Positions 44,826 through 54,338 of a stretch of 64,000 bases of DNA are shown piece by piece; the stretch's first letter is position 1, and each line of letters opens with the position of its first letter. The notes beneath the pieces are model-generated. The model did not search any database, had not been told where the DNA came from, and saw only the letters and a program-made list of their open reading frames with translations. A program made the translations under genes and the position numbers. The stretch lies in assembly GCA_964036155.1 (NCBI GenBank), contig OZ038422.1:66735201-66799200 (forward strand), given 5' to 3'. The DNA comes from Diploscapter coronatus (lineage: Eukaryota > Nematoda > Chromadorea > Rhabditida > Rhabditidae).

Positions 44826-47800
44826 TTATTCAAGCTTTAATTCTCCGACTTCATGCCACTCATCCGTTTGTGGATCGTATTCCTCGATTGAATTACAAGA
44901 AAATCTATAAAAAAAATTTCCAAATCTAAGTTAACAAATATTTGGTATAAAGATATGCAAAATCTCAGCTCACCCTCCGATTGCATATAATTTCTCGTTC
45001 GCAACAACAAGAGAATGACGAGCTCTTTCACAATTCATATCAGCGATTGGTGAAATTCGACTATCAACTGGAGCTGAGGGGTCGAAACACAGGCAGGATT
45101 TGAATACATTAGAACCACTAAATGTGTAATGATACATTATTTATCATATAAAACTAATGACAGGTATTCTCCTCCTCCAGTTATGTAAATTCTTCCATTT
45201 AATGATGCAATTCCGAAATTAGTTCGTCTTTCTGGAATCTCTCCAACTTCAATCCATTCCCGTTCATCGTGTGATAATCGATATATCTTATTATTAAAAA
45301 CTCCACCAGTAACTAAATACCCATAATTACAATAATGAATATACTATAATGTGACCGTATAAAACTCTATTGCATGTTATTGTCTGAGGATACATAATTG
45401 AAAGAGGAAGAACAGGTCCTGTTTGCCATTTTCCATCTATTAAAACCTGAATTAATTATTTCATGGACTTTCATTCGATCTTCTTACATCAACTCTAGTC
45501 GTATTTTCCGCTGCTTTATAATCGAATCCACCCAAATAATATAATTTTCCTTTGGAATAAACCACAGATGCACCAAGACGCCATCCAAGAGGATCTGGAC
45601 CTGTAAAATTCTTTGAGTCGATCGTTCATGGGTTTGTTGATAAGACCTTTTAAAATTCTTCGTGTATTGTGATCATATATTTCAAATTTTGCATCTCGAC
45701 TAATTCCAAAAATCTGAAACTTAAGAAATTATTCAAAATAACGAACATAAGAATTTACTTTATTCGGTGTAGTTGCTACTTGGTATGGCTCATACCAATC
45801 GTAAAATTTTCCAATTTTTTCTACTGAGCAGGTAGATGAATTGAAAAAGCATATTATTCCTTCCTCTTTATCATTATTATTTACATAACAAACTAAATTA
45901 TTATGAATCGTTCCAAAGTCTCTTACTTAGCTTTCAACATAAATTCTTACGATAAAACAGGATTTTGCGCGAACTATTGATTTTCCAGGATAATTTAAGT
46001 ATTGTATCATTAATCAATGGAATTTGCTTTTTCTTCTAAAATATTTTGTTTAAATATTCGCAGTATAATAATTACTACTTCAATAGCATCAGCCAAGTTA
46101 GCTGCTCCAAAAACAATCGCTTCACCTGGATGTATATTGAATCTCAGTTTATTTTTCCCGAACTTCTCTTCCAGAAGATCCCGTATGACTGGAATTCTAG
46201 TCGATCCGCCTACCAAAATCTAAAGAAAATCATATAAAGATGACAAATTGGTCGTCCCGTAGAATTGATTTGACAACACTAGACATACCACATGATCGAT
46301 ATTGTTAGCAGAAATACGAGCCATATTCAACGCCGTATCCACTAATTCCGTTGCCTTTGTAATTAGTCTACCACACAAGTCGTTGAACTTTGTGCGAGTT
46401 AATTTTACGTTCAGATCTGGTCCATTACTGACGTCTAACTAAATCCAACGAACTAAGTCTATTCACTAAATTAACTATTTACATGGATGTCTACTTCAGT
46501 AGCTGTGAAAGATAGCGATTCCTTTGCTTTCCTACACTTATCTCTTAGTTGTTTAGTTAGACGAGGATTTGAAAAAATATCATTTTTAGACATTTCAGAT
46601 TCTCTTCTTGGTCGTTTGGCTAGATGTGAATTTGCAGAAATATCGTCACTAGATGATTGCATATACTCAGTGTAAGCATAATTCATGATTATCCCGTCGA
46701 AATCCTGTCCACCTGATACAAGAAATTATTTGCATGATATGAAAAAAATATATACCCAAGTGTTCATCTCCTTTCACAGCCTTAATCGTGATTTTTCCAT
46801 TTTCTATTTCACATATGCTAATATCGAGAGTTCCTAAATCATATTGTTTAGATTTTTTTAGAATCGAATGCATAAAAGTTCTTCTAATCCAGCTGCGTAT
46901 AAATGAATTGTACGAAACAAGTTATATAATAAAATAATCATTTACCTCCACCAAAGTCGAATATCATTATCATCGAGTCATCCAATTCCTTTTCAGCATT
47001 ATAAGCAATTGCCGCCGCTATTGGCTCTTCAATCAATAGCTTCAATTCAAGTCCAGCCATTTCAACAGCTCGTTTTGTTGCAGCTATTTGACTTTCTTGA
47101 AAATTAGCTGGAATTGTGACCACTGCGCCAGTCACTTGCTTTTCAATATATGTCTGGATATTAAAACCATTATAACTCTCAAAACATAAAAATATCGAAC
47201 CTCAGCAATCGCCTTTATTTTCTTCAAAATTTCAGCAGAAACGTCTTCGGGCGTCACGAATTTTTCATTAGGTTCTCCTTTATTCAAAACATATTCCACT
47301 TTATTCTAAATTAGTCGAAATTAAATACCGTAAGATCTATAATAAAATCTACCCTAACTTTTGACTTTAAATTCTCAAACTATTCGTTTTTTAATTAAAA
47401 TTTGATCCTATGAAGAGATGAATAATTTAGATCTGTATCTGTACTTTTAGAAAATCCCTGGTTTATAATTTTGGATAGATTTTAGGAGATATGATCTGAC
47501 AAAGTCGACAGATCGGGTGGACTTCTTATTGAAAAAAATATGTTACTTACATCTCTTGTATTCAAATTGAATGTCCAAAGTAGACGATTCTCCGGAATTG
47601 GCAAGTTATTCATAAATTTCCATCCAAGGAGTCGTTTTGAATCTACAAAATCAATTCAAAAATAAGGTAGCACTTTGGACATTACTAAGTCCGAAATCAG
47701 GGATCGAAAATGAGAAGGGAAAGAATGATTTCAGGTCAGCCTCTCCTTTTCGAATGCTGTTTCATTTTTTAACGCATAAAATAGGGTAGTTAGTAAAGGA

Positions 47801-51800: not shown

Positions 51801-54338
51801 CCTGTTTCCCATTTTCCAGCTATTAAAACCTGAATAAATTATTTCATGGACTTTCATTCGATCCTCTTACATTAACATGATTATAGTCTTCTTCTGATTC
51901 AGGTTCCTTTCCACCCAAATAATACAGTTTGCCTTTGAAATAAGCCATAGATGCATATTCACGCCATTCAGGAGGATCTGGGCCTGAAAGAAAATTCTTT
52001 GAATTGATCATTCATGGATTTGTTGACAAGACCTATTGAAATTTGTCCAGTATTCAAGCTATATATTTCAAATGATTTAATTACGTCGTTAATTGCAAAG
52101 ATCTGAAGCTTAAGAAATTATTCAAAATAACGAGCATAAGAATTCACTTTATTCTGTGTAGTTGCTACTTGATATGGCTCATACCAATTGTCGAATTTTC
52201 CAATATTTTCTATTGAGCAGGTACGTGAATTGAACAAGCATATTTTTCCTTCACTTTTACTATTATTTAAATAATGAACTAAATTATTACGAATCGTTTC
52301 AAAGTCTCTTACTTAGCTTTCAAAATAAATTCTTACGATAAAATAAAATTTTATGCAGATTATCGAATGAATTGTTTCCACCAATTTGCAAATTATTGTT
52401 ATTTTGGGCTAATTCAATCATTGCACTATTAATTAATGGAATTTGCTTTTTCTTCTAAAATATTTTGTTTGAATAGTCGCAGTATAATAATTTCTACTTC
52501 AATAATATCAGCCAAAATAGCTGCTCCAAATACGACGGCTTCATTAGGGTTGATGTTGAATCTCAGTTTATTTTTCCCGAACTTCTCTTCCAGAAGATCC
52601 CGTATGACTGGAATTCTAGTTGATCCGCCTACCAAAATCTAAAGAAAATCATATAAAGATGACAAATTGGTCGTCCCGTAGAATTGATTTGACAACACTA
52701 GACATACCACATGATCGATATTGTTAGCAGAAGTTCGAGCCATATTCAACGCCGTATCCACTAACTCCATTGCCTTTGTAATTAGTCTATCACATAATTC
52801 ATTGAGTTTTGTGCGAGTTAATTTTACGTTCAGATCTGGTCCATTACTGACGTCTAACTAAATCCAACGAACTAAGTCTATTCACTAAGCCAACTATTTA
52901 CCTTGATATTTACTTCAGTAGCTGTGAAAGATAGCGATTCCTTTGCTTTCCTACACTTATCTCTTAGTTGTTTAGTTAGACGAGGATTTGAAAAAATATC
53001 ATTTTTAGACATTTCAGATTCTCTTCTTGGTCGTTTAGCTAGACGTGAATTTACAGAAATATCGTCACTAGATGATTGCATATACTCAGTGTAAGCATAA
53101 TTCATGATTATCCCGTCGAAATCCTGTCCACCTGATACAAGAAATTATTTGCATGATATGAAAAAATATATACCCAAGTGTTCATCTCCTTTCACAGCTT
53201 TAATTGTGATTTTTCCATTTTCTATTTCACATATGCTAATATCGAGAGTTCCTAAATCATGTTGCTTTAATTTACTTTTCCACAATCGAATGCATAAAAG
53301 TTTTTCTAATCCAGCTGCGTATAAATGAATTGTACGAAAAAATTATATAATAAAATAATCAGTTACCTCCACCAAAGTCGAATATCATTATCATTGAATC
53401 ATCCAATTCCTTTTCAGCATTATAAGCAATTGCCGCCGCTATTGGCTCTTCAATCAATAGCTTCAGTTCAAGTCCAGCCATTTCAACAGCTCGTTTTGTT
53501 GCAGCTATTTGACTTTCTTGAAAATTAGCTGGAATTGTGACCACTGCGCCAGTCACTTGACTTCCAATATATGTCTGAATATTAAAGTCATTATAACTCT
53601 CAAAACATAAAAATATCGAACCTCAGCAATCGCCTTTATTTTCTTCAAAATTTCAGCAGAAACTTCTTCGGGTGTTACGAGTTTTTCATTAGGTTCTCCT
53701 TTATTCAGAACATATTCCATTTTATTCTAAATTAGTCGAAATTAAATACCGTAAGACCTATAATAAAATCTACCCTAACTTTTGACTTTAAATTCTCAAA
53801 CTATTCGTTTTTAATAAAAATTTGGTCCTATGAAGAGATGAATAATTTAGATCTGTATCTGTACTTTTAGAAAATCTCTGGTTTATAATTTGGGATAGAT
53901 TTTAGGAGACTGATAAAGTTAACAAGTCGGGTGGACTTCTATTGAAAATATACGTTACTCACATCTCGTGTATCCAAATTGAATGTCCAAAGTAAACGAT
54001 TCTCCGGAATTGGCAAATTATTCATAAATTTCCATCCAAGAAGTCGTTTTGAATCTTCAAAGGATTACACAATGAATGATCATCAGAAGCGTTAAAACCA
54101 ACCGTAGAGAACACTTGATAAATCATGGTAATCCAGAGCTGGGTTACCTACCAGAATGTTTTCGTCACCAAAAGAAACTATAGATGGTAGAAATTTTTTT
54201 CCTAAACAATTCATTACTACGAAGATTATATATCAAAGCTAATTCACCTTTATCATCAAAAATAATCTTATGCACTCCCTTTTCAATGATAGCAACACAT
54301 GAATATGTCGTGCCCAGATCGATTCCGATATAGACCAT
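48899..54338 (-). CDS. Hsp70 ATPase domain fused to three tandem Kelch domains
   Basis: Thirty-one exons join in frame to 1253 aa. NBD: 54338-54248, 54201-54103, 54054-53963, 53726-53622, 53574-53367, 53251-53174, 53131-52902, 52857-52708, 52638-52498; linker 52454-52337. Kelch 1: 52278-52148, 52102-52033, 51983-51871, 51829-51739, 51695-51551, 51505-51365, 51316-51171. Kelch 2: 51112-50982, 50936-50867, 50820-50711, 50669-50579, 50535-50391, 50346-50203, 50145-50012. Kelch 3: 49953-49823, 49777-49708, 49661-49570, 49528-49438, 49394-49250, 49205-49062, 49013-48899. The ATPase signatures are intact (GIDLGTTYSCVA, FDFGGGTLDIS, LVGGSTRIPVIRDLL), and Leu53 stands where Hsp70 has its catalytic lysine. 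Each Kelch unit of ~275 aa repeats the same seven-exon structure and ends in a shared linker (GGNNSF...HKILFYR). The Hsp70 peptide-binding domain is missing. It is a tandem paralogue of the neighbour; function beyond ATP binding is inferred. Confidence 0.9.

Follow-up and report, generated by a model that had tools for sequence, protein, structure and literature searches.

Hsp70 ATPase domains without the standard peptide-binding domain are found in Stch/HSPA13 and HSPA12, which are not known to carry a Kelch propeller. Expansions of F-box and MATH proteins with a fast-evolving substrate part were reportedly described by Thomas in 2006, and these proteins are said to have been proposed to target foreign proteins. 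In nematodes, where these adaptors are expanded and a targeting of foreign proteins has been proposed for them, F-box/MATH genes and genes of the Kelch_1 family are induced by microsporidia, and knock-down of the SCF core modestly raises the pathogen load (PMC4063957). Kelch propellers occur in BTB-Kelch (KLHL/KEAP1) adaptors of CUL3; in KLHL20, the BC and DA loops form the substrate surface, and a bound peptide contacts all six DA loops (PMC6720452). In Diploscapter, 59 Hsp70 genes make up Cluster III, at the root of which positive selection was found and for which heat adaptation was proposed (Weinstein et al. 2019, PMC6872716). Here, we analyzed a 64,000-nt stretch of Diploscapter coronatus DNA (the window), on the minus strand of which two genes, lying within positions 44826-54338, have predicted products with an Hsp70 nucleotide-binding domain (NBD) joined to one and to three Kelch propellers, respectively.

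These genes share the six-bladed propeller with the BTB-Kelch adaptors, and most of their variable sites belong to BC and DA loops, which make up the surface for substrates in those adaptors. They differ from them in that no BTB or BACK domain appears in the Pfam list of either protein, an Hsp70 NBD being present instead, and in that up to three propellers follow one another in one chain. With Stch/HSPA13 and HSPA12 they have in common an ATPase domain lacking the standard peptide-binding domain; the Kelch part, which those proteins are not known to have, sets them apart. Like the nematode F-box/MATH adaptors, they belong to a large lineage-specific family, but the effector docks SCF/CUL3 ligases in those proteins and would be an Hsp70 ATPase here. 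Caenorhabditis F-box genes with a captured transposase domain are likewise multicopy nematode genes with a new domain fusion and links to mobile elements, although the domains are others, with a Tc1/Mariner helix-turn-helix (PMC12062965). The members of Cluster III come from the same lineage and the same Hsp70 family, and they are treated in PMC6872716 as heat-selected Hsp70s. The word "kelch" does not occur in that paper, and neither "kelch" nor "hsp70" occurs in the D. coronatus genome paper (PMC5483258). We found no description of an Hsp70-Kelch architecture in searches of open-licence papers for Hsp70/Kelch fusions and for Diploscapter Kelch proteins. The first-pass annotation of the window likewise knew of no such architecture; however, the two genes are not singular, and the Hsp70 expansion had already been published. 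What is new with regard to that expansion is the Kelch part, the constraint on the NBD as opposed to the divergence of the loops, the loss of the linker and the presence of the genes in a block found on one homologue only.

Spliced models of both genes were built by hand, with phase and splice sites checked, and comprise the following parts:

44826..48209, minus strand: gene 1, Hsp70 NBD, linker and one six-bladed Kelch propeller (17 exons, 689 aa)
46079..48209, minus strand: gene 1 NBD (exons 1-9, 402 aa), identified by Pfam and PDB sequence matches
46036..46078, minus strand: gene 1 intron 9, which separates the NBD from the linker; read-through leads to a stop at 46010, and other copies have indels of +2 and -2 nt
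45951..46035, minus strand: gene 1 linker (exon 10), whose length differences among short-linker copies are multiples of three
44826..45892, minus strand: gene 1 Kelch propeller (exons 11-17)
48899..54338, minus strand: gene 2, Hsp70 NBD, linker and three tandem Kelch propellers (31 exons, 1253 aa)
52498..54338, minus strand: gene 2 NBD (exons 1-9, 398 aa)
52337..52454, minus strand: gene 2 linker (exon 10), the 3' half of which is similar to the linkers joining the Kelch units
51171..52278, minus strand: gene 2 Kelch unit 1 (exons 11-17, exon 17 including the linker to unit 2)
50012..51112, minus strand: gene 2 Kelch unit 2 (exons 18-24)
48899..49953, minus strand: gene 2 Kelch unit 3 (exons 25-31)

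Gene 1 runs from an ATG at 48209 to a stop codon ending at 44826, and gene 2 from an ATG at 54338 to a stop codon ending at 48899. All 46 introns are of the GT-AG type, and no in-frame stop is present. For exons 15, 22 and 29 of gene 2, the donors chosen first gave introns of 32-33 nt and apparent stops in three other units, and they were rejected. The adopted donors lie 12 nt upstream, at the same position as in gene 1, and give introns of 44-45 nt; the shortest intron of the corrected gene 2 model measures 41 nt. The Pfam scan, the protein search over the length range of gene 2 and the NBD substitution analysis were run on a gene 2 model 12 residues longer, and the analyses of Kelch units and loops on the corrected units. 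The two NBDs are identical at 361 of 398 residues, and the four Kelch units of the window are about two-thirds identical. Each unit is a complete propeller encoded by seven exons, with six blades as counted from the repeat pattern. The models thus agree with the first-pass annotation in describing two intact genes with all 17 and 31 exons in frame, one Kelch unit in gene 1 and three in gene 2, and junctions at 46079/46035/45892 and 52498/52454/52278.

The Pfam family HSP70 (PF00012) matched both spliced proteins (E 1.4e-101 for gene 1 and 7.6e-104 for gene 2), with Kelch families C-terminal to it. In gene 2, the best HSP70 match extends no further than position 378 of the 599 in the profile, and the substrate-binding part with its lid is missing; the earlier claim that Kelch sequence stands in place of the peptide-binding domain is borne out. 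By PDB sequence search, the NBD of gene 1 matched that of human HSPA1A (E 2.4e-74). The head is an actin-like ATPase domain that has the phosphate and adenosine motifs of Hsp70s. The active-site residues D10, T13, K71, E175, D199, T204 and D206 (HSPA1A numbers) are retained in all 11 NBDs analyzed from the D. coronatus genome, and because of this the head is likely to bind and hydrolyze ATP. The connection to the rest of the protein has changed. The tail reads KKKQIPLIN, and the hydrophobic linker (VLLL and D393 in DnaK) is absent. Among the positions that contact the linker, N174 is replaced by E or D and R171 by L in 11/11 own-genome NBDs, and T177 by I in 10/11. In Diploscapter pachys (n = 11), N174 is changed in every NBD and R171 in 10, and one row (P0002b) has lost active-site residues as well. 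R171 is presumably a contact of J-proteins, and such contacts may be lost too. In DnaK, N170 and T173, which match N174 and T177, contact linker residue D393, and replacement of the VLLL linker abolishes ATPase stimulation (PMC12406271). Since both the hydrophobic linker and the residues contacting it are lost, the proposal of the first-pass annotation that the Kelch module is driven by an Hsp70 ATP switch is not supported. We take the standard interdomain coupling to have been lost, the linker and its contacts having apparently gone together; any coupling between head and propeller would have to be new, which is possible. In both genes, NBD exon 7 includes a basic, in-frame segment of 63 nt (LAKRPRRESEMSKNDIFSNPR, window ~46560-46625 and 52979-53042) that resembles a local duplication. 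It is present at full length in three of 13 further loci onto which gene 1 was projected (L027, L028 and L029) and absent in the other 10.

The tail of gene 1 matched solved Kelch propellers in the PDB sequence search, namely, designed SAKe propellers, KLHL2, KLHL3 and KEAP1. Strands and loops were assigned from a fold model of the D. pachys protein P0118, and the strands of the last blades from repeat motifs. This model has a mean predicted local distance difference test score (pLDDT) of 67.6, with the linker under 50, and the relative orientation of its domains carries no meaning. All 50 rows listed by Foldseek for the model were Hsp70s, the Kelch half not being recovered among them; the propeller half is predicted to be Kelch on the strength of its sequence.

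We then compared the ratio of nonsynonymous to synonymous substitution (dN/dS) between head and propeller. For the NBD, leaving aside L028, L029, L035 and L036, the median was 0.22 (range 0.17-0.29, 55 pairs of 11 NBDs), showing that this domain is under purifying selection. For the Kelch part, 22 clean units (231 pairs) were compared; three of 25 units were dropped, and matches shorter than 900 nt, including those in L025 and L026, were left out. Between loci, the median was 0.77 (range 0.43-1.20, 221 pairs), with 14 pairs above 1, and between units of one locus the values were 0.55-1.02 (9 pairs). The single allelic pair, L030/L034, gave 0.21, which agrees with the D. coronatus genome paper, where no allelic pair with a dN/dS above one is reported (PMC5483258). 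The divergence is concentrated in the loops: the 78 sites of the BC and DA loops had a dN/dS of 1.29 (site bootstrap 0.99-1.66), and the 141 sites of the strands and of the AB and CD turns had one of 0.47 (0.36-0.61). Entropy exceeded 2 bits at 30 aligned sites of the 22 units, 24 of which lie in BC or DA loops, two in strands and four in the stretch from strand C of blade I to the next strand A; the difference in entropy between loops and strands was matched in none of 10000 permutations. The simplest reading would be that the binding face changes between copies and that each copy is conserved.

The window belongs to an assembly of 169.7 Mb in three contigs, two of which measure 87.7 and 82.0 Mb; we refer to the contig with the window as C1 and to its homologue as C2. 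A census of the family was compiled by hand from the match tables of DNA searches in which only the best candidates were scored, and NBD pieces seen by Pfam alone were not counted, so the numbers are lower bounds. Among the matches listed, there are at least 78 Kelch loci in the genome, which together hold at least 116 units; the NBD loci number 26, and every one of these has Kelch sequence within 15 kb. Tandem Kelch units without a listed NBD match are found, for example, at C1:60625-60627 kb, C2:20204-20206 kb and C1:16834-16837 kb; Kelch loci of this kind could be Kelch-only genes or genes with diverged heads. Second, more divergent NBD fragments lie downstream of an NBD-Kelch gene at L027:554-3484 and L036:7457-9214.

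The best-matching named proteins are from D. pachys: P0121 matches most of the NBD at 54%, and P0001 matches most of the Kelch part at 51%. Of 115 proteins retrieved with the Kelch part of gene 1, four have both HSP70 and Kelch Pfam domains, all of them from D. pachys, and a fifth, WR25_19419, came from the NBD search (matches listed with E up to 1e-100). A search over the length range of gene 2 returned P0002 and P0003 again (matches listed with E up to 1e-30). Read by eye, at least eight of 14 aligned D. pachys proteins run continuously from NBD through linker to Kelch (P0002, P0003, P0004, P0118, P0120, P0125, P0128 and P0129), and their linker resembles that of D. coronatus (..PLINNTMNEL..KILFY..). 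Of the other rows, P0127 skips part of the run from linker to Kelch, the NBD of P0001 is cut, P0121 and P0122 stop, and P0116 and P0123 continue into a second Hsp70-like part. All these sequences are annotation models, some of them plainly wrong (P0003 begins with a kinase). In P0123, P0004 and P0129, a second, divergent Hsp70-like segment (AIDIGTSKCKIAICK..) follows the NBD or the first Kelch blades. In a tree of 25 NBD rows, which took in no other nematode Hsp70s, the 22 Diploscapter NBDs formed one group (100/100), and the 11 from D. coronatus grouped apart from those of D. pachys (100/100). One member of the large group, P0123, is WR25_05901, a gene in the tree of PMC6872716. Through P0123, this tree places the NBDs with the published Diploscapter expansion, Cluster III.

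Taken together, the sequences give good support to a family of predicted NBD-Kelch proteins whose binding face has diversified. On balance, we think that these are probably lineage-specific recognition proteins of Diploscapter, in which the ATPase head is constant and the propeller varies, and not classical chaperones. The first-pass annotation had expected a new kind of chaperone or adaptor; an adaptor-like role is plausible because the variation sits in the Kelch substrate loops, and a classical chaperone is unlikely. The targets of the loop face would change and might be pathogen or mobile-element proteins, and the constant head would pass bound targets to shared cell machinery. The three propellers of gene 2 might then allow multivalent or multi-target binding.

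Several points weigh against this interpretation. The dN/dS values are pairwise Nei-Gojobori counts and not a likelihood site test, and the bootstrap interval of the BC and DA loops touches 1. The BC loops contain indels, and alignment errors may have inflated their dN/dS; the gap-free DA loops gave 1.36. Gene conversion among the copies is likely. The definition of the loops leans on the P0118 model, with its modest mean pLDDT, and on the repeat motifs of the last blades, and the loci were chosen by similarity to gene 1. No NBD match is listed for 52 of the 78 Kelch loci, so that an ATPase head may be missing from many propellers. Six of the 11 D. pachys NBDs retain T177, and the loss of linker contacts is thus less complete in that species. 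Finally, that a spliced fusion protein is made is inferred from genomic sequence.

The published view is a further point against a recognition role: the expansion could have been selected by heat, the Kelch part tethering or selecting clients for ordinary proteostasis. It is favored by the 59 genes of Cluster III, the positive selection at their root and the adaptation to heat proposed for them (PMC6872716), WR25_05901 being P0123. However, the peptide-binding domain and the linker are absent and the linker contacts changed, and the divergence centers on the Kelch loops while the NBD is constrained. Moreover, in Table 3 of that paper the heat marks stand on H. mephisto genes and on none of the Diploscapter genes there. 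We therefore regard heat-adaptation chaperones as an unlikely explanation of the Kelch fusions.

A second alternative comes from the surroundings of the genes. The D. coronatus genome has been described as a 170-Mb diploid assembly with one chromosome pair and 5.7% heterozygosity (PMC5483258, PMC9071541). The flanks of the window match C2 at 92-93%, and C2 aligns to the window through 44608 and resumes at 55851, with 2 bases in between on C2. Two features define the segment missing there:

44609..55850, no strand: 11.24-kb block holding both genes, on C1; absent from the syntenic site C2:62445931/62445934
55246..55854, plus strand: copy of the dispersed repeat R at the block's right edge, with the outer end ...TCTTAA; elsewhere R forms long terminal inverted repeats

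Most aligned copies of R end in ...TTAA, as in the window at 55851-55854; the left edge of the block is eroded, with TTCA on C2. A search for arms at both ends of the block found neither R nor a matching inverted arm at its left edge. Elsewhere, R occurs as inverted repeats in a 2.1-kb element (L043), and inverted copies of it flank NBD-Kelch genes at C2:63464589-63474368 (761 bp, 97.9% alike) and C2:65934190-65940519 (~90%). In an R-flanked stretch of 9.8 kb, a Kelch remnant has beside it a helicase-like fragment (L025:2254-2481), whose Pfam match to Helicase_C (E 0.065) does not reach the cut-off.

The genes could thus have been spread as cargo of mobile elements, any function of the protein serving the element. 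The presence of the block on one homologue only, the lack of a listed family match in the C2 stretch syntenic to L031 and the two R-flanked places on C2 would fit such an origin. For L032, no flank match was found on C1, so that this locus counts neither for nor against it. However, among the 14 loci chosen for their match to gene 1, R was present within the fetched 9.5 kb at one (L024), and the block in the window has R at its right edge only. Since the other R-flanked NBD-Kelch genes were picked because of R, the repeat does not explain the whole spread of the family. In addition, none of ten open frames of three R elements (L025, L026, L042, L043) gave a Pfam transposase or anything else above the cut-off, and L030/L034 is one locus with alleles on both homologues. 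Selfish cargo appears about as improbable to us as selection by heat.

Each locus might instead encode two proteins, an NBD-only one and a separate Kelch one, made either by translating into intron 9 and on to the stop at 46010 or from an operon. In both window genes, the reading frame of the NBD indeed stays open through intron 9; among the D. pachys proteins, P0121 has such an end, and Kelch is missing from P0116 and P0122 as well. The comparison of copies speaks for splicing. In an alignment of the window genes with eight further copies, three splice sites are shared by all ten, namely, the donor that follows the NBD and the acceptor and donor of the linker exon; the acceptor following the linker exon recurs in nine, L028 being different. 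Exon 10 differs in length by multiples of three in all eight other short-linker copies, as opposed to the frame-shifting indels of intron 9; five copies (L031, L032, L033, L037 and L038) have a longer linker. Furthermore, the Kelch part of gene 1 has no start of its own, because its tail of 287 residues shows no methionine before residue 151, which already belongs to the propeller. The NBD and Kelch exons of gene 1 are separated by only 186 nt, linker exon included, and the D. pachys proteins counted above are continuous. NBD and Kelch share one strand at all 14 loci taken for their match to gene 1, most of which were places with a listed NBD match. We thus consider two genes per locus to be quite improbable. 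Yet another linker type may exist, as an open stretch of about 100 codons, without Pfam match and alike in both R-flanked copies, lies between NBD and Kelch at L026:2108-2413 and L042:6612-6893.

When the exons of gene 1 were projected onto 13 other loci, all nine NBD exons were clean in nine of them, one of these having a GC donor, and the others showed one flagged exon each (L029, exon 1; L035 and L036, exon 4) or, in L028, a 1274-nt insertion in NBD exon 5. Kelch exons 1-6 were open with canonical splice sites in 22 of the 25 units of at least 900 nt, four of which are those of the window; two of the three failed units have frame breaks, and one lacks a donor. Although the L028 insertion and the failed units would suit pseudogenes or assembly chimeras, this explanation is refuted for most copies examined by the open units, the low dN/dS of the NBDs and the junction shared by ten copies, and overall it has hardly any likelihood left. 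The first-pass annotation had likewise argued against a chimeric assembly and proposed a search of related genomes for the same domain order, which was found in D. pachys.

Apart from the two genes, Rfam and tRNA scans of the window gave no match. Tandem repeats with units of 184 bp and 15 bp are located at 16873-17206 and 28352-28477. A 0.47-kb repeat at 40843-41313, with about 40 listed copies in the genome, is missing at the syntenic place on C2, and its flanks overlap by 8 bases, a possible target-site duplication.

Hsp70s recognize their clients through one conserved peptide-binding domain. A family with a propeller in its place, the binding face of which diversified while the ATPase was conserved, would mean that a recognition module of another kind can be served by the Hsp70 head. 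A more far-reaching interpretation, which we put forward tentatively and hold to be less likely than a recognition role as such, is that, in an asexual nematode, a chaperone has been turned into a repertoire of recognition proteins encoded in the germline. The peptide-binding domain would have been swapped for Kelch, the ATPase kept as a constant effector and the binding face diversified over dozens of loci, with copies that are mobile and differ between homologues, resembling innate immune receptors with an ATPase signaling head. The proposed recognition role would give the published Diploscapter Hsp70 expansion a testable function besides heat tolerance, and D. coronatus and D. pachys, as tractable relatives of C. 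elegans, are suited for testing it.

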